DNA of 64,000 bases from Balneolales bacterium ANBcel1 (GTDB lineage Bacteria; Bacteroidota; Rhodothermia; Balneolales; Natronogracilivirgulaceae): contig JARULB010000004.1 of NCBI GenBank assembly GCA_029688905.1, forward strand, positions 62,001 through 126,000, read 5' to 3'. Position numbers and translations under genes: made by a program. The notes beneath the pieces were generated by a model. The model had not been told where the DNA came from. It was given only the letters and a program-made list of their open reading frames with translations, and searched no databases. Positions within the stretch are counted from its first letter, which is position 1. Every line of letters begins with the position of its first letter. Below, one piece after another: positions 32,175 through 48,010 of this stretch.

Positions 32175-34565
32175 TCACTCGACCGACAGAGTCAGGCGTG
32201 CTGTTTCCAGTTGATCGCCGGTTGCGGTAACGGTTACCTCTCCGGTCGAACTGCCCGCACGGAGCAGGACCGTCGCTATACCGGCTTCCGCTGCGATGGG
32301 ATTGTGTCCGATAAGGTCGGCATCCCCATCCACAGTAAACCGTATTTCGGGTTCTGCGGCAAACACCGTGTGGCCGTCCGCATCCACCACCGAGGCATAG
32401 ACGAAAATGAGGTCATTGACGCCTGCTTCCAGCGGACGTCCGCTCAGATCGGCCGACAGCTCCAGCGCCACCGGATCCGACGGGGTAACCCGCTCGTGCT
32501 CCGCGACTTTCTCACCGTCGATGTATGCTTCGGCGCGAAGGACTCCCGGCACGAACTCATCCAGCTCAAAGGTAAACGGCGGGTGGTTCAGGTTGGTGGA
32601 GACGCGGTCCTGATCGGGCCGGCGCCGTTCAATCTGCTCGCCGTTCAGGAAAAGGGCCACCTCATCGGCATTGCTGTAGACTTTCACCTCGGTGTAGTCG
32701 TCAGAGCCATCCCACCAGTTGGCGATATACGCCATCGGCCGGTCGAACCCGGCGTCCGGTGAAAAGTCGGGATCCGCCTGGCTCTGGTAAAAATAGAAGG
32801 TGAATTTCGGGATCCGGAAGATATCGCGGATTCCGGATGCTTCCAGATCGTCGGCATATCCGCGGTTGTAGTCGTACATCACCCAGTTGGCATCGCCGAA
32901 GGCCGGGCTGTACAGATTCGAGTTATGCGCTTCCTGGAAATTAAGCGCCTGCTGGGCGAGGCGGCGCTGTCCGAATCCGCGAAGCTGACGGGAGTTCCGC
33001 TCTTCGTCCTGCAAGTCTTCGAACGCGTCCTGGTTGAAACCGGCATTATGCGCATAGTATTCCCAGTCGCCGTACTCGGCAATGAACAACGGCTTTTCGG
33101 TGCCGTATCCGCTCCAGTATTCCGGTGGACTCGCATGCTGCCGTGCCGGAATAAAGATATCAAATGCGTAGTCGATCCATCCGGCCGTGTAGACATCGCC
33201 GTGCGGCAGCTCCTCTTCGACGATCTCCTGAGACCGGTCCATGAACCATTCGGGCACTGCCGTTTCATTCAAGGACGCCTCCCAAATCACCACGCTCGGG
33301 TGGTTCCGGTCGCGGCGAATCATGTCCCGGATATCCTGATACGCATTCTCCTGGAACACTTCGTCGCCAAAAAACTGCCAGCCGGGTATGTTGTTCATAT
33401 AGAGCAGTCCCAGCTCATCCATGGCCTCCATGAAGGCCGGAGAAGGCGGATAGTGTCCGCCGCGAATGAAATTGAAACCGGCTTCCCGGATTTTGATCGC
33501 GTCGCGGTACTGGGCGTTGTCGGAAAGCGCATAGCCGACATAGGGATATTCCTGGTGCCGGTTGGTGCCGCGCAGATACAACGGCTCACCGTTCAGCACA
33601 AAGCCGTTCTCCCCGTCGATGGAAAAGGTCCGGATACCGATGCGGAGCTCTTCGGTATCGACCGGCGTGCCGCCTTCGAGCAGCTGAACAGAAAGGGTGT
33701 AGAGGTACGGATTGTCCGGTGACCACAGTTCCGGGCCGTTCACCTCAAGCATACCCTCGAACAGCGTGTAAGAACCGGCATCCACCGTCTGCGCCGGAAG
33801 CTCACCGGATGTTACCCGCTCACCGTCGGCGCCGCGCAGGATGTAACGGACCGTCGCCTCCCTGGCTTCGGCATCATCGTTCTGGATATCGGTTCGGATA
33901 TGTACTTCGGCGCGGTCGTGCGTCACATTTTCGTACCACACATAGACACCGCCGGCGGCCGGGCGGTCCGCCAGGATCTCGTCGGAGATATGCAGCGGAT
34001 CCTTCACCTCCAGGTATACGTTCCGGTAGATTCCGCCGAACCAGTTGAAGTCAAGCTCCGCAATCGGCTTGCCGGGCGGGATCTGCGGATTGTCTTCGTT
34101 ATTCAGTGTGAGCAGGATCACATTCTCCTCGCCATAAGCCAGTTTGTCGGAGAGGTCGATCACAAACGGGAGGTAACCACCGTAGTTGGTGTGAATGTGC
34201 TCGCCGTTGAGATAGACTTCCGCCTCGTGCATCGCCGCCTCAAAGCGCATGGTGACTTTTCGGCCGTCGTATGCCTCATCGGCATGGAAAGCCTTGCGAT
34301 AGACCGCGGTGCCCTGCCATTGCTGGTCTTCGATCACCAGCGGCTCCACATGGGCGGTATGGGGCAGCCTGACCTGCTCCCATCCGTCGAACGTGGCACC
34401 CGATGTTCGGAAAAACTCGCCATTCAGTTCCGGATCAATGTTACGTGCAAATTCCCATCCGTCATTGAAAAGCATACGGGTTTCCTCAACGGGTTCTTCC
34501 GCAACCGGCCCACAGTACCATACGAGCGGAATCATCAAAAATATCAGGAGGAATGTCTTTTTCAT
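32175..34565 (-). CDS. GH2 beta-galactosidase lipoprotein
   Basis: 796 residues. Short lipoprotein-type signal (LLIFLMIPLVWYCG, Cys18). GH2 domains in order: sugar-binding jelly roll (about 35-190, GTAVYRKAFH, NYGGYLPFVIDLS), Ig-like domain (about 195-310), TIM barrel (about 315-600) with Glu434 in ASLNET (acid/base) and Glu497 in FIAEYGDWE (nucleophile), then Ig-like domains at the C-terminus. Probably a periplasm- or outer-membrane-attached exo-beta-galactosidase that finishes the oligosaccharides made by the GH53 enzyme. Galactan PULs of Bacteroides pair GH2 and GH53 in the same way. The leader carries the ~115-nt element also found upstream of susD. Confidence 0.9.
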   Translation of the reverse strand: MKKTFLLIFLMIPLVWYCGPVAEEPVEETRMLFNDGWEFARNIDPELNGEFFRTSGATFDGWEQVRLPHTAHVEPLVIEDQQWQGTAVYRKAFHADEAYDGRKVTMRFEAAMHEAEVYLNGEHIHTNYGGYLPFVIDLSDKLAYGEENVILLTLNNEDNPQIPPGKPIAELDFNWFGGIYRNVYLEVKDPLHISDEILADRPAAGGVYVWYENVTHDRAEVHIRTDIQNDDAEAREATVRYILRGADGERVTSGELPAQTVDAGSYTLFEGMLEVNGPELWSPDNPYLYTLSVQLLEGGTPVDTEELRIGIRTFSIDGENGFVLNGEPLYLRGTNRHQEYPYVGYALSDNAQYRDAIKIREAGFNFIRGGHYPPSPAFMEAMDELGLLYMNNIPGWQFFGDEVFQENAYQDIRDMIRRDRNHPSVVIWEASLNETAVPEWFMDRSQEIVEEELPHGDVYTAGWIDYAFDIFIPARQHASPPEYWSGYGTEKPLFIAEYGDWEYYAHNAGFNQDAFEDLQDEERNSRQLRGFGQRRLAQQALNFQEAHNSNLYSPAFGDANWVMYDYNRGYADDLEASGIRDIFRIPKFTFYFYQSQADPDFSPDAGFDRPMAYIANWWDGSDDYTEVKVYSNADEVALFLNGEQIERRRPDQDRVSTNLNHPPFTFELDEFVPGVLRAEAYIDGEKVAEHERVTPSDPVALELSADLSGRPLEAGVNDLIFVYASVVDADGHTVFAAEPEIRFTVDGDADLIGHNPIAAEAGIATVLLRAGSSTGEVTVTATGDQLETARLTLSVE

Positions 34566-34682
34566 CTGTTTAAAAATTTTGGATTTATAATGTCAGATAG
34601 GATTCCATGACCGGTTTTTATCATGCGACTTTGAGTCCTGGCACCAGCCCGGTCATGTTCGTTTGATCTGTTTATATCATTT
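34566..34682 (-). repeat. Leader element A (copy upstream of the GH2 gene)
   Basis: About 115 nt directly upstream of the GH2 start codon, nearly the same as element B upstream of susD (44712-44822); alignment by eye gives roughly 80-85% identity with few gaps. Both contain CATGACCGG (34606-34614) and CCGGTCATG (34649-34657), which can form a 9-bp stem, and the block ATTTATAATGTCAGATAG on the plus strand. The element also fills the gap after the 34716-37316 gene. Confidence 0.8.
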
Positions 34683-34715
34683 TTGTGAATATGTCATAGT
34701 TACGAATATAAAGAA

Positions 34716-37316
34716 TCAGCGTAACCATACCGATGTAACGGCAAATCCGGCTTTTTTCGGGGAGTCGCCGCCTTCATGGTCGGCACCGGTAACCAGCTGA
34801 ATCTCTTCAATCCCGGCGGGGTTTAAGTCGGGATCTGCGGCACTGTTGAACCAGAACGGCATGAAGGGCGGATAGGGCCTCGGCAGCAGCATGAAGGCAT
34901 CCCGGCGGAAATCATCCAGCGAGAGGTAGTGCTCTTCATAACGCCCGGAGAGGGTCAGCTCGGCGCTGAACGAGGATCCGTCCCGCTGCACCAGAATCAC
35001 CCTGACCACCGATGCGTCTCCCGCCATGGACTTTCCCCGCACCATCAGTTCGGAAGCTTCCTGGGCACGCGCTTTGCGCCCCTCCACATTGTCCCTGACA
35101 ATCGCCGCCCAGCCAAGTGCTTCGGTGGTTACCGGCGCCAGATCATCCGTCCGGACCCACACCGCTTTTCGGCCGGGACGGTCGGAGGCATCCACACCAC
35201 GATGGTAGACTTCGTGCTGCCAGGTCTGAAAGGCAAAATTGATGTTGCCGAGATCGCGGGCGGTCTCAAACAGGGAAACCGGCGTATCGGCAGACGCAAC
35301 ATGGACTTCCCACACATCGTCATGATAAAAGTTCCAGTCCCAGGGATGGCCGTCGAACTCGCCGGGGAAGGTCGTGAAGCCCCCCTCCTCTTCCACAACA
35401 ATCCAGTAGTTCATCAGGCCCGAGTTCACCATCCCGGCCGGCATGGTGAACTCGTATTCAAAGGCGGCAACCTCCTCCATCACCTCATCAAAATAGAGCT
35501 CTCCGAAAATGTTGCCGATCAGATGAACACGCGCGCCGGGGCCTGTTCCGGCCACAGTAGCGCGTATGGTGTGCGCCTCGCCCTCATCGATGACCGGCAG
35601 CGGGTTGTGCCGAACCCTCACGGCGTCGGATGTCGACTCGATTGCCACGTATTCGCCGACCCGGATGTTGCCGAACCGGCTCCCGGCCCCCCAGCTGTGC
35701 CCTTCACTGCCCTGGCGTGTCAGAATGTAGGCGCCCGGCAAAATCCGGAACGAGCCGTCTTCGGCCGCCATACTACGGTCGTTGCCCTCGTTCATCCCTT
35801 CAATCGCAAAGCGATCGCCAAGATTCGGGAGACGCACTTCCATCGACCGCTCGTGCCATTCGATCACCGACACGTGCTTGTCGAACGCCGGGGGTTCGAA
35901 GGGATCCCGAACCGCGATCACATCCGGCATCACTTCCAGGCGCCAAACCCCATCCTCCAGCTTGTCCAGAAAATAGGCGCCGGTGCCCTCGTAGTGAACG
36001 ACCGGCGAGTTGCCCACTCCGGCGATATGTTGCAGCGCCGAGGCGTCGCGTGGTTCGGTTTGTGTGTGATTGGAGTAGTAAAACGCGGTGTCGGTATTCA
36101 TCTCGGAGAGGTCCTCCGAGTGACTCACCCGAAAGTCGCCGAACTGCTTGTTGTGCGGGAAGGGCTCCGGTTCCTTGCCCAACGGCCAGGATCGGAACAC
36201 CTCGCCGGCGATACGCATGCTGACGGCCTTGCCCGGGGTGTAGATCATGTTCAGGTAGTGGGTCGGGTAGTCGCTGTTGGCAAACGCGATGCCGAGCGGA
36301 TCGTAGGCGAACTGTGTGGCCCACTGGAATCCGGCCGCCCGGAAGCTGCGTGCCATCACCGGGTAGGCGTAGGAGTACATCAGGTCGGAGGAATCGAACT
36401 CATAGATAAAGCGGAACTTGTCCTGCATCGCTTCGCGATTACCGAAGGGGATGGCGTACTCATCGATATACGGAAGGTAGTTTTTGCGGATGGCCTGACC
36501 GCCTACCAGTCCGCCGGGGTACCACTGAAATCCGACCCCGTCGATATCGGCATTCATAACCGCGTCCACCACCGGAGGGTTCTCGGCGATGTTGTAGAAC
36601 ACCGGCTTTTCCCAGCCGTTATCCCGCACAAAATCGGCCAGGTCGTTGATATAGGCGGTGATTTCATCCAGATCGCCACTATGCAGCGGCTCGTTGACCA
36701 GCTCGACGGCGATGATATTCGGGTCCTCCTGATAGGTCTTGCCGGTGTACGGATTCTTGTGCGTCAGAAACTGATCGAGGTAGTTTTTCAGGATATCCCG
36801 GTACTCCGGGCGGGGAGCGTCGGTTTTGGAGATGTAGTTGGCAAAGCCGGGTGTGGGGGTGGCTCCGTCGGGGTAGGCGTTGTCATAGAAAGTGAGCGGG
36901 GTGAGGATCACCTTGATGCCGCGCTCTTCCATCTGCCACAGTTTGTAGTCCAGCAGGTCGAGATGCTCGTTGTGCAGCAGGTTGCCAAGGCTGTCGCTGA
37001 TTTCGGTATCCCAGACATGGATACGGAAAGCGTCAAAGCCCATCCGCGCGAAATGGTAGATATCCTTGTCCATTTCCTCCTTGTGATCCATTCCGAGCAG
37101 ATCCATCGCACGCCAGCTGTGGGCAAACGGCGGGGAGTAATTGATACCGAAAAACGAGGCCTCCTCACCGGTTTCAGAGCTTATCAGAATGCCCTGCTCA
37201 TTGACATAATACGGGACAGCGGTATCCTGCGCCTGCGATTGCACCGGCGCCGACGCCCATGCCACCAGTGCGGCCAGGATCAGGAGAGTAAATCGGTCGA
37301 AAAAGATTTGCTGCAT
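34716..37316 (-). CDS. Secreted clan GH-A glycoside hydrolase, paralogue 2
   Basis: 866 residues. Signal peptide (LLILAALVAWASAPVQSQAQ). TIM barrel at about 35-430 with Glu209 in VELVNEP (acid/base) and Glu306 in FRFIYEFDSSD (nucleophile), then beta domains and a C-terminal jelly-roll-like module ending SVWLR. Shares long stretches with the 25015-27741 product (ISDSLGNLL, TPGKAVSM, IAGVGNSPVV, AIEGMNEGND), so the two come from a duplication and then diverged in the C-terminal half. It is not a lipoprotein and has no T9SS tail, so it is probably periplasmic. The family number cannot be fixed by eye; a beta-galactosidase or galactan-side-chain hydrolase is the natural guess from context. Confidence 0.75.
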   Translation of the reverse strand: MQQIFFDRFTLLILAALVAWASAPVQSQAQDTAVPYYVNEQGILISSETGEEASFFGINYSPPFAHSWRAMDLLGMDHKEEMDKDIYHFARMGFDAFRIHVWDTEISDSLGNLLHNEHLDLLDYKLWQMEERGIKVILTPLTFYDNAYPDGATPTPGFANYISKTDAPRPEYRDILKNYLDQFLTHKNPYTGKTYQEDPNIIAVELVNEPLHSGDLDEITAYINDLADFVRDNGWEKPVFYNIAENPPVVDAVMNADIDGVGFQWYPGGLVGGQAIRKNYLPYIDEYAIPFGNREAMQDKFRFIYEFDSSDLMYSYAYPVMARSFRAAGFQWATQFAYDPLGIAFANSDYPTHYLNMIYTPGKAVSMRIAGEVFRSWPLGKEPEPFPHNKQFGDFRVSHSEDLSEMNTDTAFYYSNHTQTEPRDASALQHIAGVGNSPVVHYEGTGAYFLDKLEDGVWRLEVMPDVIAVRDPFEPPAFDKHVSVIEWHERSMEVRLPNLGDRFAIEGMNEGNDRSMAAEDGSFRILPGAYILTRQGSEGHSWGAGSRFGNIRVGEYVAIESTSDAVRVRHNPLPVIDEGEAHTIRATVAGTGPGARVHLIGNIFGELYFDEVMEEVAAFEYEFTMPAGMVNSGLMNYWIVVEEEGGFTTFPGEFDGHPWDWNFYHDDVWEVHVASADTPVSLFETARDLGNINFAFQTWQHEVYHRGVDASDRPGRKAVWVRTDDLAPVTTEALGWAAIVRDNVEGRKARAQEASELMVRGKSMAGDASVVRVILVQRDGSSFSAELTLSGRYEEHYLSLDDFRRDAFMLLPRPYPPFMPFWFNSAADPDLNPAGIEEIQLVTGADHEGGDSPKKAGFAVTSVWLR

Positions 37317-37428
37317 TGTTTTGAATAGGTTGAGGTACTTGTTTACTGTTTTTTTGGGAGGATGGGGAGGATGTAGTCGGGAGCGAATGCTCTTTGAAGT
37401 ATGCGGTTCAGGGTTGATCCGGGGCGTG

Positions 37429-37449
37429 CTGCGGACAAGTACCCCGCAG
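37429..37449 (-). promoter_or_regulatory. Hairpin downstream of the GH53 gene
   Basis: CTGCGG (37429-37434) and CCGCAG (37444-37449) pair perfectly with a 9-nt loop, 26 bases after the GH53 stop codon. No T-run. Confidence 0.5.
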
Positions 37450-37475
37450 TGAATGGCCCGTTTTTCTGTGAGTTT

Positions 37476-39632
37476 CTATTTGAGCAGCGTCATGCTCCGG
37501 GTGTAAACGGCATCACCGGCTTGCAGCACGTACATGTAGACTCCCGATGAGAGGTGTGAGCCGTCAAATTCGACACGATACACGCCGGGGGCATGAGGAG
37601 CATCGGCCAGCGTTGCCACCGTTTGGCCCACCATGTTGTAGACGCGCAGTGTGACGTGGTTCGCTTCGCTGACTTCGTAGGTGATCAGGGTGGCCGGATT
37701 GAACGGATTCGGGTAGTTCTGCTGCAGGGCCATCCGGCCGGGGACATCGCCGGGCCCTTCCGAATCCGTGGGTATCTCAAACGCCTCGCAGGTGCCCCAA
37801 CGGAAGGCAAACGCGGCGGCGGGCTCATCGGGGATCACATAACCGCGGTCGGAACTCCACCAATCGGCACATTCGGCCGGCACTGACTCACGGGCGCCCC
37901 AGCTGTTGTCGTACATGAAATAGTAAGCGCCTTCGGCTCCCGGGGCCATGTAGGTGACATGAGCGTAGATCTGGTTGCCATGGTGGTTCATCGGCACGAT
38001 CTCCCAGTCACCGTTGCCGGTAAACGAGCCAGTCATGTAGACCGTACCGTCGTACTCCACACCGGCATCGGACATATCCACGCTGAAGGTCACCTCCACC
38101 TCATCGTGGTCGCCGGGCGGCTGACAACTCTCCCACTCAAATTCAAAGATCACATCCTCTCCGGGAACCACAAATCCGCGATCCGTATCCCAATGCTCGG
38201 CACATGCCTCCGGGACACTTTCGCGGGCATCCCAGTCGTTGCCGTTCACAAAATAAAACGCTCCGTCATCCCCTTCCGGCAGGTAGGTAAACCAGCTGAA
38301 GATACCGTTGCCCTCATCGGCCATGGGAATCAGTTCCCAGTCGCCGTCTTCTCCGGTGAACGAGCCGGTGATATACGCGCCTTCCTCGGCCACATCCACA
38401 CCGGACATATCCACCCGGAAGGTCACTTTGGGCCAGTGCGGATCCTCATAGAACCGCCGGTTGGTCCACTTGCCACCGCCGTTTTCCATGAAGTTGAGGT
38501 CATCGGGATGAAAGAACGCCACATGCGTGTGGGAAGAGCCGGTAATCCAGGGAGTGCGGCAGGGGGTATCCACCCATGCGGGTTCCCAGAAGATGACGCC
38601 GTTGCCTCCGGCCCTCATCACCGCCCTGGTGTAGTCGACCATGTATTCAAGCTGCTTCTCCGGGATGACGGGCAGGTATTCCGGATCAGGCGTGTTGATG
38701 ATGCCGCCGTAATCCTGCGACCAGAGATAGCCGGTCTCGACCGCCATCACCTCATACTCCGGGTAGGTGTCGACCATGGTTTCGACCAGCGATTCCAGTT
38801 GGCCGATGCTGCCCTCGTGCCAGGCGTAGTAGTAGGAGAAGCCGATGATGTCGAAATCGGTGACGCCGGCGGCGGTCATTTCGCCGTACCACCACTGGAG
38901 ACCGTTTAAATTGGACCAGTGCAGGGCAATTTTGGGGTTGATGGATCCGGTTTGGCCAAATTCGCGAACCGCACGGATGCCGGCGTTGAACAGGGTGGCA
39001 TTGCGCTCAAAATCACCGGATCGGGCCACGGACTCCGCCGGACCGAAATCCGATGGATTCTGGGTGTACGCTCCGGGCAGGTGCAGCAGGATACCGGCGT
39101 TGTTCTCGTTTCCAACCTTGACAAACTCCGGGGCCAGCCCTTCGTCTTCCAACCGGCTCAACACCGCCGCGGTGTAGTTGTATATGGAGTCGGCCAGAGC
39201 TTCCACATCATGTGCGGATTCCTTCCAGGCCCGGGGAATCAGCTGACGGCCGGGATCGGCCCATATGTCGGAATAGTGAAGATCAAGCATCAGCTCCATC
39301 CCGTAATCGCGGGCCCGCCGAAACGTTTTGATGACATCTTCGAGGTCGCTGTAGTACGGCCTGACGCCATCGGGCTGGCTGAGCGGCTCCTGCCACCAGG
39401 AAGGATCGACCCATAGCCTTGCCCTCACCAGGTTCGTCTCCTGCCCGGCGAAAATGCCAAAGGGATCCGCCGGCTCGCCCTGGTAGAGATACTCGGCTCT
39501 GCAATCCTCCATCTGATTGACATAGGAGAGGTCATTGCCAAAATAGAAAGACTGATCCTGGGCTCCTGAACGTATGGAAAGAAGCAGGAGGATGGCTGCG
39601 GCAAGAGAACTGAGTCTAAGGGTGAAAATCAT
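37476..39632 (-). CDS. GH53 endo-beta-1,4-galactanase with two repeat domains and T9SS tail
   Basis: 718 residues. Signal peptide, then the GH53 catalytic barrel at about 25-395: NDLSYVNQMED, LVRARLWVDPSWW, MLDLHYSDIWADPG, Glu176 in VKVGNENN (acid/base) and Glu299 in MAVETGY (nucleophile). It cuts the backbone of type I (arabino)galactan. Two similar ~100-residue domains follow (about 405-515 and 525-625), each with VTF.VDMS at the start and ES..P..CA..W..DRG.V.P near a final Cys; they are probably carbohydrate-binding. The last ~80 residues are a type A T9SS sorting domain (NYPNPFNPATLITYE), so the enzyme is exported to the cell surface or released. This is the enzyme that defines the locus substrate. 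Confidence 0.93.
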   Translation of the reverse strand: MIFTLRLSSLAAAILLLLSIRSGAQDQSFYFGNDLSYVNQMEDCRAEYLYQGEPADPFGIFAGQETNLVRARLWVDPSWWQEPLSQPDGVRPYYSDLEDVIKTFRRARDYGMELMLDLHYSDIWADPGRQLIPRAWKESAHDVEALADSIYNYTAAVLSRLEDEGLAPEFVKVGNENNAGILLHLPGAYTQNPSDFGPAESVARSGDFERNATLFNAGIRAVREFGQTGSINPKIALHWSNLNGLQWWYGEMTAAGVTDFDIIGFSYYYAWHEGSIGQLESLVETMVDTYPEYEVMAVETGYLWSQDYGGIINTPDPEYLPVIPEKQLEYMVDYTRAVMRAGGNGVIFWEPAWVDTPCRTPWITGSSHTHVAFFHPDDLNFMENGGGKWTNRRFYEDPHWPKVTFRVDMSGVDVAEEGAYITGSFTGEDGDWELIPMADEGNGIFSWFTYLPEGDDGAFYFVNGNDWDARESVPEACAEHWDTDRGFVVPGEDVIFEFEWESCQPPGDHDEVEVTFSVDMSDAGVEYDGTVYMTGSFTGNGDWEIVPMNHHGNQIYAHVTYMAPGAEGAYYFMYDNSWGARESVPAECADWWSSDRGYVIPDEPAAAFAFRWGTCEAFEIPTDSEGPGDVPGRMALQQNYPNPFNPATLITYEVSEANHVTLRVYNMVGQTVATLADAPHAPGVYRVEFDGSHLSSGVYMYVLQAGDAVYTRSMTLLK

Positions 39633-39678
39633 AGGAATATGTGCTGATTTTTAAAAACGGTTAACTATGGGAGTCTGA

Positions 39679-39726
39679 CCGTAAAATATCACGGCCGGCA
39701 TTGGCAGGCACGGACAATATTTTCGG
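39679..39726 (-). promoter_or_regulatory. Hairpin downstream of the beta-helix gene
   Basis: CCG-T-AAAATAT (39679-39689) and ATATTTTCGG (39717-39726) pair with one bulged base, beginning four bases after the stop codon of the beta-helix gene. Confidence 0.5.
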
Positions 39727-39730
39727 GCCG

Positions 39731-41875
39731 CTATTTGATCAATGTCATGGTTCTGGTTTTGGAAATGCCGTTTGTGGCCATTTCGTACAGGTAGAGGCCG
39801 CTGGAGAGCCGGCTGCCGTCGAAGGTGACGTGATGGGCACCCGCAGGCCGGTAGCCATCCGTGAGAACCGCAACTTTTTGTCCCAGTGCGGAATAGACGG
39901 TAATCCGGACATGTGCCGGTTCCTGCAGCCCAAATTGAATTTGGGTAACCGGATTGAACGGATTGGGATAGTTCTGATGCAGCTCGACCCGGTCCGGGAT
40001 TCCGTCGGGATTGCCGGCGGATGTTTCCTCGCCGATATACCGGCATGATCCCCATCTAAAGGCAAACGCGACATCTTCGTCAGGTATCACATAGCCACGA
40101 TCGGAATCCCACCAGTCGGCGCACTCGGCAGGCACCGTTTCGCGGTAATCCTCGTAATTGTCCCAGCTGTCGGTGGTCATGTAATAATACGCGCCCTCCT
40201 CTCCGGGAAACAGAGAAATTTCATAACGATAGATTTCATCGCGGAGGTGTTCCATTCGCGCGATTTCCCAGCCGTTCAGATGGCCGGTTATATAGACGCC
40301 ATCCTCATAATCCACTCCGGATCCCGCCATATCCACCTTGAAGACGGCCTGTACCGTCTCTTCCGGCTCCGGGGTGGTGATGATTGTTACAAAGTTGTCA
40401 CGGACTTCATTGCGGCCTTCCAGATGAGCCCCGTTGGTGAGCCAAACCAGCCCTTCTTCCAGCGAACTGTTGCCCTGAAACTGCGACTCGGCATGCTGTC
40501 GATACGCCTGCATGTACTGCTCGGAGACGGCCACTTCATTGCCCGATATCACATTGTCGACAATGGTTTCCTCGAAGTCTTCGTGGATGCGGATCAGGTC
40601 GGTGGTGCGGCCTATCCGGGGGTTTTCCTGGCGTACCACATTGTCGGCCAAAATGTTGCCGCTGGTTGGCACATGTTGCTCATGACTGCTGTTGATGAAC
40701 AGGCCGGCGATCCAGGAGTCAACGACGGTATTGCCTCTGACCTCGTTGTCCTGCGAGCCGCTCAGCAGCCAGATGCCCCTGGGAAAGTTCCTGACATAAT
40801 TATCCTCGATCAGGTTGCCGCGGCTGTCGTTGGGAAGCCTGATGCCGCCGTACGAATCACCGGGAGGATTCTCATTGATCACCTCGTTGCCCCGGAACAC
40901 GTTGTTTTCCGCTCTGGAGAGATTGATGCCCGGACCTGTGGGCGAACCGGCTGTCCGGATGAAGGTGTTGTTGATGATTTCGTTGTCGCGGAACCGCAAG
41001 TCAGGCCGGTTTTCCCAGCCGGTGGAAAGGCCGCGGCCATCCATGTTGTCGAAGATGGAATTGGAAATGCGGGAGTTTTTTGCAAGGCGAATGATGTTCC
41101 CGCCGGAATTGGTCATATGAACGTGATCAATCACCAGGTTTCTGAAGTGTTCTTCAATCCATATCGCCCCGATCCATTCGCCGACGTCATACATGTTCAC
41201 ATCAATTTTCAGATGCGACAACTCCATGTCCAGGGTCCGGTTTTCGGAATAGTGGTGGGTGTGGGCGAACAGCGAGTTCCTGGTATAGTTCCTGTGGGTA
41301 GTATTTTTGATGACTGATGTTTCCATGCCCTCGCCCTTGATGCTGACTCCCTCCCAAAAGCCCAGTTGGCGGGCGATATGAAAGGTTCCTTCCGGAATAA
41401 AAACCGTGCCCGGCTGCTCGCGGCTGAAGAAGTAGTCGATTGCGGCCAGGATATACCCGGCCTGATCCTCTTCAACATCACTGCGGGCACCATACCATCG
41501 GATATCAACGGACTCTCCGTCCCATTCGCGCATCCATCGGCCCGTTTCGGTAACATCGGAGGCGACAATCATCCCGCCATCGCTCTCCTGCACCTCACCG
41601 GACGCAAAGGCAAACACTCCTCCGCCGCCGTCGCCGGGTTCCCAATAGCCTTCCACTTCCACAATCAGCTGATCTTCGGGGTTTTCGAATGCCTTGAGTC
41701 CGGATACCGTTTCCACCGTGGGAAGCGGCTCACCACCATCATCCGCCGAAATCATCATCCGCGAACCGGAGCTGCCGGAAAAGGAGCTCTCACCGACAGC
41801 CGGGGATGATCCGGAGAAAAGAAACAGAAAAGCCGTAACGGCGCCAAGTACTGGTTGCAGGGACATAGGGATCAT
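39731..41875 (-). CDS. Secreted right-handed beta-helix protein with T9SS tail
   Basis: 714 residues from ATG 41875 (signal SLQPVLGAVTAFLFLFSG); 41866 and a farther 42007 are alternatives. After a Ser-rich linker comes a pectate-lyase-3/beta-helix region at about 110-480: 'DIRWYGARSDVEEDQAGYIL', 'TVFIPEGTFHIARQLGF', 'VSIKGEGMETSVI', then many N-rich coils (NNTFIRTAG, NNVFRGNEV, NLIEDNYVR, NEVRGNTVV). One copy of the ~100-residue domain shared with the GH53 enzyme follows (about 520-620), then a T9SS sorting domain (NYPNPFNPVTQI). Such helices are usually polysaccharide lyases, hydrolases or epimerases. No catalytic residues could be identified, so binding without catalysis remains possible. 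Confidence 0.8.
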   Translation of the reverse strand: MIPMSLQPVLGAVTAFLFLFSGSSPAVGESSFSGSSGSRMMISADDGGEPLPTVETVSGLKAFENPEDQLIVEVEGYWEPGDGGGGVFAFASGEVQESDGGMIVASDVTETGRWMREWDGESVDIRWYGARSDVEEDQAGYILAAIDYFFSREQPGTVFIPEGTFHIARQLGFWEGVSIKGEGMETSVIKNTTHRNYTRNSLFAHTHHYSENRTLDMELSHLKIDVNMYDVGEWIGAIWIEEHFRNLVIDHVHMTNSGGNIIRLAKNSRISNSIFDNMDGRGLSTGWENRPDLRFRDNEIINNTFIRTAGSPTGPGINLSRAENNVFRGNEVINENPPGDSYGGIRLPNDSRGNLIEDNYVRNFPRGIWLLSGSQDNEVRGNTVVDSWIAGLFINSSHEQHVPTSGNILADNVVRQENPRIGRTTDLIRIHEDFEETIVDNVISGNEVAVSEQYMQAYRQHAESQFQGNSSLEEGLVWLTNGAHLEGRNEVRDNFVTIITTPEPEETVQAVFKVDMAGSGVDYEDGVYITGHLNGWEIARMEHLRDEIYRYEISLFPGEEGAYYYMTTDSWDNYEDYRETVPAECADWWDSDRGYVIPDEDVAFAFRWGSCRYIGEETSAGNPDGIPDRVELHQNYPNPFNPVTQIQFGLQEPAHVRITVYSALGQKVAVLTDGYRPAGAHHVTFDGSRLSSGLYLYEMATNGISKTRTMTLIK

Positions 41876-41944
41876 CGGATTCGTAAAAACGGGTGGAATA
41901 TAGGTTTGGAAAAACCGGTGAACTGGAAAAAAGTGAACAGAAAA

Positions 41945-41976
41945 GGGCAAACGGAGCCACCAATCACCATTTGCCC
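41945..41976 (-). terminator. Possible terminator after the candidate glycan-binding gene
   Basis: On the minus strand GGGCAAA (41976-41970) and TTTGCCC (41951-41945) pair perfectly around an 18-nt loop and are followed by TTTTC. It starts 20 bases after the stop codon. It may reduce transcription into the beta-helix gene. Confidence 0.55.
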
Positions 41977-41996
41977 TCCTCTGCGACCATAGGATT

Positions 41997-43040
41997 CTAT
42001 TTGACAAGCATCATGGTTTTTGTCACTGCACCGGCGGTGGTCTCAAGGCGGTACAGGTAGATGCCAGAGTTCAGTTCCGCTGCGTCAAACTGTACGGAAT
42101 GTCGTCCGGCGGAGCGGACACCTTCATCCAGCAGCTGCACTTTGCGCCCAAGCACATCATACACGGAAAGAGAGATGTGGGAAGCGTCGTCCAGCCGGTA
42201 GGAGATGGTAGTTGCGGGGTTGAACGGGTTGGGGTAGTTCTGCTCCAGTTCAAAGGATCGCGCCAGCGGTTCCTGATCCACGGAGGTCGGCTCGCCGCCG
42301 GCAATGCGGAGGGAGTTTACGAAGAGGCTTCCCTGTCCGGGATTGCCCTCTCCCCAGTTCGGGCGGCCGTCATTGAAAAAGTTGACTCGGTCGGCGGTAA
42401 CGCCTTCGATCACGCCGCTGAAATCGACGTGCGACTGTTCCGTGATGGCTACAACGGCGTACTCGAGATCATCGCCGTTTTGGGTGATGGTGACCTCCAG
42501 TGCGACTCCGTTTCCGCGCCACTGATCTCCTTCATCCCAGTCCTCCGGGGAGGCGTGCTCCTCGGCCAGGTCGTTGTTCACAAAATAGCCTTCGCTGTCA
42601 AAATCCAGCAGCATCACCGGGTCGTCCCAGCTGCCGTTGTGGAGGGTGAAGCCGGTCAGGCCGGGGCTTGCCCAGTTCCATGCCATCTGAAAAGAGAACA
42701 CCTGTCCGTCCTGGAGCGGTTCGGCAAAAACACGCCCGAGGTCCACGCGCTGGTCGGCGGCATCCCCTTCGGATGATCGGAGGGCGAATGACATTCCATC
42801 GGTATCGATCACGGCGGAATTGGATCCGTTATCGGCTGCCGACTGAAGCAGTACGGCGGCATCTTCGCCATCGATTTCGCGATGCCACTCACCGAAGCCG
42901 CTACCCAGGTTTTCCAGGTCCTGGAACTGCTGTTCGGTGTAGTTTGAGGCGTGGTCTTCCGCCACGACGTTTTGTGCCTGCGCAGTACCGGAGGCAAACG
43001 CAAAAAGCAGCAAGTATGACAGTATATGTATGGTCTTCAT
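41997..43040 (-). CDS. T9SS-sorted secreted protein at the SusE position (candidate glycan-binding protein)
   Basis: 347 residues. Signal peptide (ILSYLLLFAFASGTAQAQ), then a ~230-residue beta-rich domain with many aromatic residues (FSFQMAWNWASPG, FTLHNGSWDDPVMLLDFD, RPNWGEG) that looks like a jelly-roll lectin, then a linker and a T9SS sorting domain (ELEQNYPNPFNPATTISY). No catalytic signature was found. It directly follows susD, where PULs usually encode a surface glycan-binding lipoprotein (SusE/SGBP); here the export signal is a T9SS tail instead of a lipobox. ATG 43040 begins the signal peptide; the frame is open 40 codons further. The binding role is inferred from position and aromatic content. 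Confidence 0.7.
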   Translation of the reverse strand: MKTIHILSYLLLFAFASGTAQAQNVVAEDHASNYTEQQFQDLENLGSGFGEWHREIDGEDAAVLLQSAADNGSNSAVIDTDGMSFALRSSEGDAADQRVDLGRVFAEPLQDGQVFSFQMAWNWASPGLTGFTLHNGSWDDPVMLLDFDSEGYFVNNDLAEEHASPEDWDEGDQWRGNGVALEVTITQNGDDLEYAVVAITEQSHVDFSGVIEGVTADRVNFFNDGRPNWGEGNPGQGSLFVNSLRIAGGEPTSVDQEPLARSFELEQNYPNPFNPATTISYRLDDASHISLSVYDVLGRKVQLLDEGVRSAGRHSVQFDAAELNSGIYLYRLETTAGAVTKTMMLVK

Positions 43041-43153
43041 AGGATATGGTCTCCTGTGGGGTTTGTTGGTTGTTTGGATGCTGATCGGATGAAAGCGTAG
43101 CAGACACGGGAGCGTGTCAAAGTGAAACAGTTCGGGCGGGTATGCCGGGCCGG

Positions 43154-43195
43154 GCGGCACGGGTTGGGGTGATGTTCCGTGCCTGCCCGTGCCGC
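43154..43195 (-). promoter_or_regulatory. Strong hairpin after susD
   Basis: GCGGCACGGG (43154-43163) and CCCGTGCCGC (43186-43195) are a perfect 10-bp GC-rich stem with a 22-nt loop, ten bases after the susD stop codon. No T-run. Probably protects the upstream message or lowers expression of downstream genes. Confidence 0.7.
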
Positions 43196-43205
43196 GAAAT
43201 CCGCA

Positions 43206-44711
43206 TCAATTGTATCCGGGATTCTGATCGATGGCGCCACCGCTTTGAACGATAACCGTTTGGGGTATCGGGAAGAGCACGTGGTGATCCTGCGCATTGG
43301 TGACTCCCCGCTCCCGCGCGTTTTCGATGAAGCGTCCGTGGCGGATCAGGTCCATGCGACGCAATCCCTCTCCGTAGAACTCGCGGCCGCGTTCGGCCAG
43401 CAGCGAATCCCGGAAGGCCGCCTGGGAAAGTCCGGAGAAGGGTTCCAGGCCGGCGCGTTCACGGACTTCATTGGCATAGGTATATGCTTCGTCGGGACCG
43501 CGCTGTTCATTGATGGCTTCGGCCAGCGATAGCAGTGTTTCGGCATAGCGGAAAACGGGCTGGTCGTGCGGGAAACCCTCACCCGGATTCCCGGTCAGGC
43601 CGCCGGTAAACTTCAGGGGGATGGCCCCTTGCATGCCACTTTCGCGATTTACCTGTTGGCCTCTCGCATTTTGGTAGCTATCCACGATTGTCTCCAGACG
43701 GTGGTCAGCGGGCTCGTAGTTGTCGTAAAAATCCCAGGGCATGTAATACACATTCCAGCCGGGCTGAGTCAATTCGAAGATACCCGATGAATAGTTGGAG
43801 GGAATCACCTCGGGTATCCACCAGTTTTGAGCCGCTTCGCCGGCGGGCACCGCGAAGATGATTTCGTCGTTGCGCTGCTCGTTGAACACCGAGGCGTAAT
43901 CGGGCAGCAGCCGGTATCCCATATCCATGATGTCACGGGCGACGGCTTCGGCTTTCGCCCATTCGTGCTCATGCATGTAAAGACGGAGCAACAGCATCCG
44001 GGCGGTTCCCTTCGAAACGCGTCCCCAGTTGGCTGAATTGTTGTTGTACATCGGCGTGAGGTACGGGATGGCTTCCAGAAGGTCGGTTTCGATGCTCTGG
44101 ATATACTCCTCTTTTGGCGGACGCGGATCGATGTGAGTGTCGTGCATGGTCAGCGGGTCGAGTTTAACCGGGATGGTGCCATGAAAGTCATAGATCACGT
44201 ACATCAGCCATGCGCGAAGCACTTTGGCCTGAGCAATGTAATAGTCCCTTACATGATCGGGCACATCGGCTTCCGAGCTTTCTATCTGATTGATCACATC
44301 GGTGGCCCTGGCGATAAAACGCGACTTCACGAATGTGGCCGCGAACACATCCTGACCGGGAGAGATGGTCATCGTCGCCGGACCCCATGTGAAGTTGTTG
44401 AAATCGTCCTGATAAGGTGCATGAAGCTCATCGGTGGTGATCATACTCTGACCCAGGTAGGATTTCGGGTCGGCATTGTACAACGCCGCCGACCATACGC
44501 CGTCGCCGGGATCACTGGTGCCCCAGTCGGCGGTAAACGGACTGTAAATCGCCACCAGCGCCTGGTCGAAATCGGATTCCGACGAGAAGAAGGTCTCGGG
44601 CGTGAGGCTGTCGTACACTTTCGGATCCAGCAGATCGGAACAGCCGGAAACATACAGCGAACCAGCCCCGGCAATAAGTACGGTGAGGATAAGTGTTTTT
44701 ACTTTTTTCAT
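43206..44711 (-). CDS. SusD/RagB-family outer membrane glycan-binding lipoprotein
   Basis: 501 residues. Lipoprotein signal (LIAGAGSLYVSGC, Cys24), then SusD features: LLDPKVYDSLTPETFFSS, DELHAPYQDDFNNF, a TPR-rich helical core (YIAQAKVLRAWLMYVIYDFHG, AKGTARMLLLRLYMHEHEW-like region) and the C-terminal RagB part (PVFRYAETLLSLAEAINEQ, RRMDLIRHGRFIENA, LFPIPQTVI). It forms the lid of the SusC channel and captures oligosaccharides, here presumably galacto-oligosaccharides. The leader is element B, shared with the GH2 gene. The last residues DQNPGYN are the typical SusD end. Confidence 0.95.
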   Translation of the reverse strand: MKKVKTLILTVLIAGAGSLYVSGCSDLLDPKVYDSLTPETFFSSESDFDQALVAIYSPFTADWGTSDPGDGVWSAALYNADPKSYLGQSMITTDELHAPYQDDFNNFTWGPATMTISPGQDVFAATFVKSRFIARATDVINQIESSEADVPDHVRDYYIAQAKVLRAWLMYVIYDFHGTIPVKLDPLTMHDTHIDPRPPKEEYIQSIETDLLEAIPYLTPMYNNNSANWGRVSKGTARMLLLRLYMHEHEWAKAEAVARDIMDMGYRLLPDYASVFNEQRNDEIIFAVPAGEAAQNWWIPEVIPSNYSSGIFELTQPGWNVYYMPWDFYDNYEPADHRLETIVDSYQNARGQQVNRESGMQGAIPLKFTGGLTGNPGEGFPHDQPVFRYAETLLSLAEAINEQRGPDEAYTYANEVRERAGLEPFSGLSQAAFRDSLLAERGREFYGEGLRRMDLIRHGRFIENARERGVTNAQDHHVLFPIPQTVIVQSGGAIDQNPGYN

Positions 44712-44822
44712 CTGCTTAAAACTTTTGATTTATAATGTCAGATAGAATGACATGACCGGTTTTAATCATGCGCTTGTGTGTCCTGTTACCAGCCCGGTCA
44801 TGATCATTTCATCTGCTTAAGT
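44712..44822 (-). repeat. Leader element B (copy upstream of susD)
   Basis: Occupies most of the gap between the SusC stop and the susD start. It matches element A (34566-34682). CATGACCGG (44751-44759) and CCGGTCATG (44794-44802) can form a 9-bp stem with a 34-nt loop. The sequence CATCTGCTTAA followed by TTTTGATTTATAA appears at both of its ends (44709-44734 and 44810-44835), so the element is bordered by direct repeats. Confidence 0.8.
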
Positions 44823-44890
44823 TTTTTTGATTTATAAAACGGTATGTGCATCTGTGGCCGCGCGGTTTGCCGGGCGGCGGACGCGGGATG

Positions 44891-47800
44891 TCAGAATCGA
44901 AGTTCCACGCCCATGGTCAGGGAGTAGGATTTCGGATAAGGGTTGACTTCGGTGAGTTCCGGATCGTACCCCGAGTAGCTGGTGAAGACCCCGAGATCCT
45001 GCATGTTCACAAAGATTTCAGCCGAGCGCATGTTCAGGCCGGTAGCCATCAGCCAGCGCTGCGGGATGGAGTAACCAAGCGAGATATCACCGATGCGAAT
45101 AAAGCTGGCATCTTCCAGGTCGAAGTCCGTTCCCTCGGGATTGTCGCCGGAATAGGGGTTCGGAGCTACACCGGGACGGGTGCCCTGCGGATGGTCCGAG
45201 CTCCATACATCCTTGGCCAGCGTGGTGGTATTAAGCGGTGCTCCGGTCAGGCGCAGGTTGCCGATATTCGGAGCAAGGTTGTTATACCGGTCGAATCCAA
45301 GATTGCCGTACACAAATACCCGCACGTTGAAGTTGCCGTAGGAGAAGTCGTTGCCGAGTCCAACGGACCACTTGGGTATGCCGTTGCCGATCTTGACCAC
45401 ATCGTCACTGTCGAGAATGCCATCGCCGTTCTGATCCACAAAAATCAGGTTACCCGGATTGGCATTGGGCATATGATCGGGTATCTCCTCTTCACTGGTG
45501 ATGATCCCAGCCGTTTCCCATCCATAGATGGCACCGAAAGGATCCCTTTCGCCAACATAGGATGGCAGAGGCACCTGGGGATTGCGCTCGCGCCAGTAAC
45601 TCTCGTAGTAGGAGATGTTGAAATCGGTTGACCACTGGAACGAACGGTCCGACAGGTTCAGGGTGCGGAGTGTGAGCTCAATACCACGGCTTCGGGTAGA
45701 GCCCACATTGTCGGCAATCCTTCCAACCGGGTTGTTGAACGGCATGATATTGAAATCAAGCAGATCGCTGGCCGTTTTCTGATAGAGGTCGACGGCACCG
45801 CGCAAACGGTTGCGGAAGAATCCGAAATCAATACCCGCATTGATGGTGGTCACCGTCTCCCAGGCGAGATTCGGGTTCGCGATCTGGGTAAGTGTGACGC
45901 CATTCCTGTTCACATTTCCAATCATGTATGAGAACCCGGGGCCGTAGAGTTGCAGCGTGTTGCCGCTCAGCACGCTTTCGTTGCCGGCCTGACCGTAGCC
46001 CAGGCGGATCTTCAATTCCGAGATTTGGTCCACATCGCGCAGAAACGCCTCATCAGAGATGATCCACGCGGCGGATATCCCGGGGAAAATCCCCCACTTG
46101 TTGTCTTCGGCAAATACACTGGAACCGTCACGGCGGACAACACCGGAGAAGACATAACGGTCGTAGAGCGTGTAGTTCACGCGCATGAACTGGGAGAGCT
46201 TGGTCCGCTCGTTCCTCCAGGAAAACATTTCGGTACGCTCGCTGTCTTCGGCAATGGCAAGGTTATTCTCCCTAAAGGCGTCTGTGAAAAACCCGATACC
46301 AACTACACCAAACCCTTGTCCTTCAGCTCTGTAAAGACCGGATCCGGCAACAACATTAATCGCGCTGTTTTCCATCCGGCGGTTCCAGGTAAAGAAGCCC
46401 TCCACACTCATATTATCCCGGGTGGCTTCGGTTTTTTGCCCCATCCCTTCCGACAGTCTGGAGTGGTTGGAGGTTCTCGGCAGGTAGAAACTGCGGACGG
46501 TCTTTTCCGTGTCGTACTGCCCGCGTAATGTTCCCTGCAGATTCTCGTGGAACTGAACTTCGAGCTTTGGCGCAACAAAGATGTTGGTGGTCTGTGATTC
46601 ATCCGTCATGTCAAAGAATGATACCGGATTCATGATGAGGCTGTTGTACGTCCTTGAATAGGCGCCGGACTCATCATAGACATCGAAAGTCGGAGCAAAA
46701 CTCACCGCTGCCTGAATCATGTTCGAGCTGCCCGGACCGCCGATACTGGCTCCGGTAGCCGGATTATTGCCGTCAATGCGGCTGACGGTCGACCGGATAT
46801 TCAGATCGACAAAACGGCTCAGCTGCTGGTCCACATTCAGCCGTCCCGCATATCGTGAAAAAGTGGAATTTTTCAGGATGGCCTCATTGTCCTGGAAATT
46901 GAACGAGCCGAAGACCCTGGTTTGGTCGGTTCCTCCGCTGATGGAGATGTTGTGTTCCTGAATCGTACCGTTTCGCATGAGGAGGTCGGGCCAGTTGGTG
47001 CCGATGCCGGCAGCGGCTATTTCACCCTGGGAGAAGAGCGGGCTGTAACCGGAACTGGCGGGATCGCCCGGACCATAAGGCTGCAGATTGTTCTCATACC
47101 GGTAAAACTCATGTGCCAGCCGATCCTGCTGCTCCATGAATTGCCGCTCGTTCAGCAGCGGGAGGTAATCGTGCGCCCGCTGGGTGGTCATGCTTCCGCG
47201 GTAGTTTACCTGGATGTCGCCGGCCTGTCCGCTTTTCGTGGTAATAAGTACTACCCCGTTGGCCGCTGCCGATCCGTAAATGGCCGCGGCGCTGGCGTCC
47301 TTCATCACGGTGATCGACTCGATATCCGAGGGATTGAGATAGCTGAGCGGGTCGCGGTCAATGCCCCCGTAAAAACCCAGAACTCCACCGGAATCACCTT
47401 CATCAAACAGGCTTGGCACTGTAGATGAGTACTCGGTAACCGGAACACCGTCAATTACATACAACGGCTGGTTGCTTCCGCCGGGAGAAATGGCTCCCCG
47501 AATGTTGACCGAAACGCCACCACCGGGCTGGGCTGACCTTGTCTGCATGTTCAGGCCCGGAGCCTGGCCCTGGAGCATCTGGTTGAAGGAAGTTCGTGCG
47601 ACGGTATTCATCGTTTCCGTCTGGACCGACGTGATGGAGCCCGTCAACTCCCGCCTGCTCTGGGTTCCGTATCCGACCATAACCACCTCCTCGCCCATGA
47701 TGGCGATGCGCTGCATGGTCACATTCAGCACTTCCTGCTCGTCAATGGGAACCTCCAGCCGTTCAAAACCGATGAACGAGAAGATCAGGGTGTCTGTGGC

Positions 47801-48010
47801 AGCGGGCGCGGTGAGTCTGAATTCACCCATGCCATCGGTGGTGGTTCCAATATTGGTTCCTTTCACGATAATATTCACACCCGGCGATTCCATGCCCGCG
47901 TCGTCGGTTACCGTTCCCCTGACCTGATGTTGGGAAAAGGCCTGACCCGCCAGCAGGACGATGATGACCAAACCGGATATCATGCTCTTAACCGTATCAA
48001 TTCCAGCCAT
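44891..48010 (-). CDS. SusC/RagA-family TonB-dependent outer membrane transporter
   Basis: 1039 residues. Signal peptide (GLVIIVLLAGQAFSQ), a carboxypeptidase-D-regulatory-like domain (VRGTVTDDAGMESPGVNIIV, residues about 27-100), a TonB-box-like region before the plug (MVGYGTQSRRELTGSITSV), the plug (GQAPGLNMQTRSAQPGGG; VNIRGAISPGGSNQPLYVID; AAIYGSAAANGVVLITTKSG) and a 22-strand barrel ending SLTMGVELRF. It imports glycan fragments across the outer membrane with energy from TonB-ExbBD. First gene of the PUL. A CG-centred palindrome lies 178 nt upstream of its start. Confidence 0.96.
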   Translation of the reverse strand: MAGIDTVKSMISGLVIIVLLAGQAFSQHQVRGTVTDDAGMESPGVNIIVKGTNIGTTTDGMGEFRLTAPAATDTLIFSFIGFERLEVPIDEQEVLNVTMQRIAIMGEEVVMVGYGTQSRRELTGSITSVQTETMNTVARTSFNQMLQGQAPGLNMQTRSAQPGGGVSVNIRGAISPGGSNQPLYVIDGVPVTEYSSTVPSLFDEGDSGGVLGFYGGIDRDPLSYLNPSDIESITVMKDASAAAIYGSAAANGVVLITTKSGQAGDIQVNYRGSMTTQRAHDYLPLLNERQFMEQQDRLAHEFYRYENNLQPYGPGDPASSGYSPLFSQGEIAAAGIGTNWPDLLMRNGTIQEHNISISGGTDQTRVFGSFNFQDNEAILKNSTFSRYAGRLNVDQQLSRFVDLNIRSTVSRIDGNNPATGASIGGPGSSNMIQAAVSFAPTFDVYDESGAYSRTYNSLIMNPVSFFDMTDESQTTNIFVAPKLEVQFHENLQGTLRGQYDTEKTVRSFYLPRTSNHSRLSEGMGQKTEATRDNMSVEGFFTWNRRMENSAINVVAGSGLYRAEGQGFGVVGIGFFTDAFRENNLAIAEDSERTEMFSWRNERTKLSQFMRVNYTLYDRYVFSGVVRRDGSSVFAEDNKWGIFPGISAAWIISDEAFLRDVDQISELKIRLGYGQAGNESVLSGNTLQLYGPGFSYMIGNVNRNGVTLTQIANPNLAWETVTTINAGIDFGFFRNRLRGAVDLYQKTASDLLDFNIMPFNNPVGRIADNVGSTRSRGIELTLRTLNLSDRSFQWSTDFNISYYESYWRERNPQVPLPSYVGERDPFGAIYGWETAGIITSEEEIPDHMPNANPGNLIFVDQNGDGILDSDDVVKIGNGIPKWSVGLGNDFSYGNFNVRVFVYGNLGFDRYNNLAPNIGNLRLTGAPLNTTTLAKDVWSSDHPQGTRPGVAPNPYSGDNPEGTDFDLEDASFIRIGDISLGYSIPQRWLMATGLNMRSAEIFVNMQDLGVFTSYSGYDPELTEVNPYPKSYSLTMGVELRF

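Follow-up and report, generated by a model that had tools for sequence, protein, structure and literature searches.

The window analysed here is a 64,000-nucleotide stretch of the genome of Balneolales bacterium ANBcel1 (genome G000; 3.32 Mb in 23 contigs, 98.4% complete), and two similar leaders lie on its minus strand, one ahead of a gene for a GH2 lipoprotein (copy A) and the other between a susC-like gene and susD (copy B). The first-pass annotation had described this pair from the letters, and its description holds: the leaders align at about 85%, both carry CATGACCGG...CCGGTCATG arms, each runs precisely up to the ATG of an ORF (32175-34565, GH2; 43206-44711, SusD) and both proteins open with lipoprotein-like signal peptides (MKKTFLLIFLMIPLVWYCGP, MKKVKTLILTVLIAGAGSLYVSGCSD). 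Also real are the direct repeats noted at the borders of copy B, which consist of an ATGAAA duplication together with the remnant tail of a second element. The features of the two loci, all on the minus strand, are as follows (basis in brackets).

44891..48010, -: SusC-like TonB-dependent receptor gene, upstream of copy B (PF07715 plug, PF13715)
44813..44838, -: remnant tail of another element, directly upstream of copy B (sequence, alignment)
44808..44812, -: upstream ATGAA copy of copy B, reading ATG AAA TGA (sequence)
44712..44807, -: copy B of the element, between the susC-like gene and susD (top match in its own genome, top match of covariance model R1)
44794..44802, -: main-stem 5' arm of copy B, CATGACCGG (covariation)
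44760..44782, -: conserved unpaired core of copy B, GACACACAAGCGCATGATTAAAA (invariant columns in alignments A2 and A5)
44751..44759, -: main-stem 3' arm of copy B, CCGGTCATG (covariation)
44739..44744, -: terminal-stem 5' arm or guide-like segment of copy B, TATCTG (covariation, distant copies)
44709..44714, -: terminal-stem 3' arm of copy B, CAGATG, with the start codon inside (covariation, distant copies)
44707..44711, -: downstream ATGAA copy of copy B, the susD start codon, ATGAAAAAA (sequence)
43206..44711, -: SusD-family lipoprotein gene, 501 aa, starting at copy B (PF07980, 5e-29)
34663..34667, -: upstream target copy of copy A, decayed to ATCAA (sequence)
34566..34662, -: copy A of the element, upstream of the GH2 gene (blast, alignment, R1 match)
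34649..34657, -: main-stem 5' arm of copy A (sequence)
34606..34614, -: main-stem 3' arm of copy A (sequence)
34594..34599, -: terminal-stem 5' arm of copy A, TATCTG (sequence, fold)
34563..34568, -: terminal-stem 3' arm of copy A, CAGATG, with the start codon (sequence, fold)
34561..34565, -: downstream ATGAA copy of copy A, the GH2 gene start codon (sequence)
32175..34565, -: GH2 lipoprotein gene, 796 aa, starting at copy A (PF02836, PF00703, PF02837)

The ends of copy B were set by the ATGAA duplication and by comparisons of filled and empty sites at other loci, which give a length of 96 nt, or a 101-nt unit with one ATGAA copy; its upstream ATGAA leaves a two-codon ORF at the old site. Just upstream of copy A, window positions 34716-37316 hold an 866-aa ORF (minus strand) with no Pfam match, and a 799-aa ORF runs over the same stretch on the opposite strand.

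A structured repeat family in Bacteroidota

Leaders A and B are copies of a hairpin-forming mobile DNA element of about 100 bases that occurs in scattered Bacteroidota families. Chance likeness is excluded by the blast E-value between the two copies (9e-32) and by the 44 hits, about 35 of them solid, that copy B finds as a query in its own genome. A single recent duplication between the two loci would suit similar leaders 10 kb apart, but A and B are no more alike than other dispersed copies, and the presence of about 40 such copies in G000 and many in its relatives refutes it, leaving it next to no probability. Copies in G000 stand singly or in tandem (arrays at C1:41853-42194, C1:500845-501133, C10:29087-29312 and C2:409-422 kb), and a covariance model built from 21 copies (R1, alignment A2) matches 48 sites there, 41 with E below 2e-4. 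In one segment that is itself duplicated, with 94% identity between its two copies (L013/L021; C5:371-374 kb and C2:420-423 kb), a pair of A-type and B-type elements precedes a 123-aa ORF.

R1 also matches in 17 of 20 genomes of the same GTDB family, with per-genome counts reaching at least 39, and finds nothing in the other three (G007, G008, G010). A broader model (R2, alignment A5) detects relatives in 30 genomes, belonging to several families, of the 395 Bacteroidota genomes sampled; it has at least 10 matches in each of G186, G216, G262 and G266 and nine in G352. Most of these genomes are drafts, copy numbers in relatives are lower bounds and covariance-model E-values are rough. The matches in G026 and G051 lie on short contigs and may reflect assembly contamination. 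Among named records, exact-match loci were found in Balneolales/Balneolaceae metagenome assemblies and in one Verrucomicrobia contig, where the match falls inside a coding region and is attributed to chance. Searches of named phage and plasmid collections gave no credible copy. One phage contig (L215:2971-3054, IMGVR_UViG_3300010430_006947) holds a shortened copy, without the main hairpin, placed precisely where a 102-aa phage gene starts. The family has no Rfam entry, and no earlier description of it was found in the open-licence papers searched.

Read along the gene strand, the element begins after ATGAA with a main stem of variable letters, which encloses a small variable hairpin and the conserved unpaired core ACACAGGnGnATGATTA. 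The 3' arm of the main stem is followed by a guide-like CAT[C/G/A]TG, an A/T-rich loop of 20-30 nt, CA[G/C/T] and then ATGAA and the gene, such that CATnTG pairs with CAnATG in a terminal stem that includes the start codon. The structure is real. Across 115 distinct copies, 93.1% of cells pair (82.2% in shuffles), changes on both sides occur in 144 cells (shuffles, 41.8) and covariation scores 0.278, against 0.107 when shuffled and at most 0.042 when slid. Distant copies form the same main stem from other letters (AACATCCAT/ATGGATGTT, AATGCCCA/TGGGCATT and AACGAGCAT/ATGCGAGTT; the third stem includes a tandem G-A mismatch), and the middle pair of their terminal stem is C-G in 21, G-C in 16 and A-T in seven. 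The first-pass annotation had made its reading depend on further copies in this genome and its relatives and on compensatory changes in the stem; both are abundant.

Some copies carry extra modules based on CGAAGGTCACGAAGTG, placed before the hairpin or in the tail loop. Furthermore, modules of GAACCGAAGGTCACGAAGTGC or of a tandem 39-bp GAATCGAAGATCACGAAGTGCCCAGTGAAACGCGTAAGC lie inside several elements (L003, L004, L006, L020, L098, L190 and others), in both orientations and at several places, and resemble a second, nested repeat.

Insertion at ATGAA and at start codons

At the left junction the target copy almost always reads ATGAAA, but at the right junction the base after ATGAA varies among A, T and C. 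The duplication thus covers ATGAA, and the first base of the element itself is A. The flanks, including the upstream one, show little further specificity. Insertion takes one orientation relative to the target and leaves ATGAA on both sides, and the gene therefore keeps a start codon. The old start becomes ATG AAA TGA (A-type) or meets a stop soon after.

That the element moves follows from filled and empty orthologous sites at four genes. The clearest case is ilvC, compared in 16 family genomes, where the start codon is filled by different variants in four genera (G000, G003, G013, G017) and the ATGAAA start has no such element in the remaining genomes with readable upstream sequence (G001, G004-G009, G011, G012, G015, G018). 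The empty site in G001 reads ..TTTACAGATGAAACTTTATT and the filled site in G000 ..CCAACAGATGAA[ACATCCATGG...TTTAAACAC]ATGAAACTTTATT. At the gene that follows ilvC the element is present in G013 and G003 and absent from other genomes; at the L203 gene it is present in G001 but absent from G005 and from G000 (protein identity 92.5%); and at the L082 gene it is present in G001 but absent from G000. With many dispersed copies, these filled and empty sites, an exact ATGAA duplication and near-identical copies in some genomes, the small mobile cassette that was among the options of the first-pass annotation is well supported, and the leaders almost certainly represent a mobile element that inserts at ATGAA. 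The other two options, a regulatory RNA and an mRNA-processing site, stay hypothetical.

The highest identities among dispersed copies are 97-98% in G001, 98% in G005 and 99% in G186, which by sequence points to recent activity in these genomes. In G000 they reach only 88%, and activity there therefore looks old. A 94-nt variant has recently spread in G005, mostly at an ATGAA adjoining an earlier copy, and 58 of 121 copies directly follow another copy.

The fillings at ilvC (4 of 16 genomes) and at the next gene (2 of about 13; L105-L120, L109/L110) are independent and in different genera, a hit rate above that expected from about 2% of genes per genome, and the region may be a hot spot. Upstream of ilvC in G008, a genome without the element, lies a different insert (L116) that begins ACATGAAATGATGAAACCGCC, has inverted CGCAAAG-type repeats and ends within the leader of ilvC; elements of another type may share the ATGAAA target. 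Related NAD-dependent epimerase-like genes in genomes of different families (L104 in G026, L260 in G186) both start at an element, which could reflect co-transfer or a shared hot spot.

Copies are concentrated at gene starts. In G000, 22 of about 36 arrays exactly start an ORF of at least 100 aa, and among distant array-terminal copies 52 of 67 exactly start an ORF of at least 80 aa, in genes that by inspection include dnaN-, ndk- and lpxB-like ones. In sampled element-free sequence, ATGAAA occurs at 27-28 likely starts, at 43-61 other intergenic sites and at about 390-400 sites within coding sequence, so that the enrichment at start codons, relative to the remaining intergenic ATGAAA sites, is 2.4- to 3.6-fold, a rough figure given the simple ORF calling. 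Landing at starts may thus exceed what target and selection would give. No copy was found within any gene body, though about 80% of ATGAAA sites fall there. Some copies lie antisense, for instance one at the 3' terminus of lon (L002) and one flanked by two genes of the opposite strand (L030), and these argue for recognition of DNA rather than mRNA. The proposal that the element's purpose is to fit genes out for expression finds no support, as copies occupy non-start ATGAAA sites as well as the antisense position at lon; the downstream gene nevertheless starts within the element's 3' end.

Route of movement and competing explanations

The likely account, taken as a whole, is a non-autonomous, structured mini mobile element at ATGAA with a single-strand, HUH-like route as its proposed means of movement; the route taken by itself is put forward more tentatively, as somewhat short of an even chance. 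The element is about 90-105 bp long and structured, and on this account has no enzyme of its own; it enters the pentamer ATGAA, or TTCAT as read on the complementary strand, in a single orientation. ATGAA (Met-Lys/Met-Asn) opens many Bacteroidota genes, and insertion there keeps an in-frame start codon. Insertions inside genes would be removed by selection, as is partly shown. The old start would be left as ATG AAA plus a stop within a few codons, and translation of the gene would begin at the ATGAA of the A/T-rich 3' end. Movement would most likely be as single-stranded DNA, with an HUH-type nuclease acting in trans presumably cutting and rejoining at TTCAT. On the strand opposite the gene one reads in turn TTCAT, an A/T linker, a guide that complements the cleavage site, the hairpin and a second TTCAT. 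The terminal-stem segment is a putative guide: its complement lies in the left cleavage region, but in copy B it has the option of pairing with the right one, and both RNA and DNA folding of that copy choose this second pairing.

Candidate mobilising enzymes were compared across the 20 family genomes for four Pfam families. The Y1 transposase (PF01797) has no match in G000 and is found in six of the 20, three of which lack the element; it was rejected as helper on both grounds, although its gene may have been lost from G000. The ends of the IS200-type gene in G005 and G017 are unrelated to the element. Reverse transcriptase (PF00078; 5 of 20) and the 23S-IVP four-helix protein were likewise rejected, neither tracking the element, and the Y2 transposase of IS91 (PF04986) has no match in any of the 20 and is silent in control genomes too. 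A search for autonomous copies, in which a gene would separate the hairpin from the tail, found none. By GC skew, which is weak here, copies divide 16:13 between strands, and the lagging-strand bias expected of IS200/IS605 is not seen.

Two explanations would place the function in RNA. A cis-acting regulatory RNA, i.e. an mRNA leader controlling translation by pairing or freeing the start codon, accords with a start codon inside a covarying stem, with the position of most copies exactly at start codons, with RNA-fold z-scores of -3.3 and -2.5 and with the alternative pairings visible in the element, as the guide of copy B could pair with the upstream or the downstream AUG in two exclusive folds. 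Such a leader is nevertheless improbable, since presence is haphazard among orthologues, the downstream genes share no function, copies also lie away from gene starts and antisense, and no Rfam family corresponds; a known riboswitch or leader was rejected for want of any relevant Rfam covariance-model match in the window or at the element loci. Pair counts on the element strand are not decisive for RNA or DNA (G-U against A-C 19 to 20 in the main helix; 34 to 29 in the whole structure without the ATG-constrained pair) and give no clear RNA strand preference, and folding energies do not favour the gene strand. A SINE-like RNA, whose transcript would anneal by its 3' AUGAA to a nicked TTCAT end and be copied in by target-primed reverse transcription, would yield the ATGAA duplication and fits the structured, RNA-like core and a 3' end complementary to the target with ATGAA at both ends. 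Against it, the counts again give no clear G-U excess, reverse transcriptases do not track the element and no length-variable series of 5' truncations, as is typical of target-primed copies, was noticed, which makes it slightly the less probable of the two.

A DNA-based alternative is a cassette without a gene, with ATGAA as its core and a tyrosine or serine recombinase as its mobilising enzyme, comparable with integron cassettes. The core does lie in directional direct repeats, tandem copies stack at a shared ATGAA and the site can form a hairpin; a target of only about 5 nt without inverted arms, and the absence on inspection of attC-like R/L boxes, make this as improbable as the regulatory leader. 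A bolder extension of the mobile element reading would make this a phylum-wide mobile class that rewires translation starts through an enzyme new to such mobilisation, its single-stranded form (DNA or RNA) folding around the ATG and doubling as a leader that switches between upstream and downstream AUG; this is considered rather doubtful.

The family occupies the start codons of many genes, housekeeping-like ones included, in several Bacteroidota families, and would account for odd 5' leaders and tiny upstream ORFs. It offers a natural test of how insertions at start codons are tolerated and affect expression. It also points to a mobilising enzyme with a short fixed target, which could be found by comparing carriers with non-carriers.

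Comparison with known elements

Classical MITEs (DDE) have terminal inverted repeats and a fixed-length duplication of whatever target they enter; they differ in kind, as the element has by inspection no terminal inverted repeats and its target is fixed and directional. Integron attC cassettes likewise form core-sharing arrays with single-strand hairpin sites, but the element holds no gene and R/L boxes were not seen by eye. The BOX elements of Streptococcus are modular, structured, high-copy and near genes, and the element too may hold extra repeat modules; the sequences are unrelated, and BOX is not known to have an exact start-codon target. TAACTGA heptamer repeats, present in Beggiatoaceae, Cyanobacteria and some Bacteroidetes, are also concentrated just upstream of start codons and spread by an unknown mechanism (PMC4679880), but these are simple heptamer arrays without the hairpins or the ATGAA duplication.

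Parallels also lie in single-strand systems, where IS200/IS605 ends have the order cleavage site, guide, hairpin, and REP sequences combine guide and hairpin (PMC6006769). REP/BIME with RAYT (TnpA-REP) are short, intergenic and dispersed, single or clustered, carry a hairpin with a guide at its 5' foot (as in the bottom-strand reading of the element) and are thought to move in trans as single-stranded DNA. The element differs in its length of about 100 nt, its internal conserved core, an ATGAA target duplicated exactly at both ends and its place on start codons; furthermore, its hairpin foot is of CAGATG/CACATG type rather than the GT[AG]G (GTAG/GTGG guide) of REP, and G000 has neither TnpA-REP nor PF01797. 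The core is also complex and conserved, whereas IS200 and REP ends are simple hairpins. From IS200/IS605 and the non-autonomous derivatives of that group, PATEs among them, the element differs in that a single hairpin and a single guide seem to suffice for its two ends, that it has no tnpA/tnpB copy, that no Y1 gene tracks it, and that no strand bias is seen. With IS200/IS605 the element nevertheless shares directional insertion 3' of a short, fixed, T-rich target, ATGAA/TTCAT at both junctions, the lack of terminal inverted repeats, a subterminal hairpin with a covarying, putative guide complementary to the cleavage site, and the order of cleavage site, linker, guide, hairpin and cleavage site.
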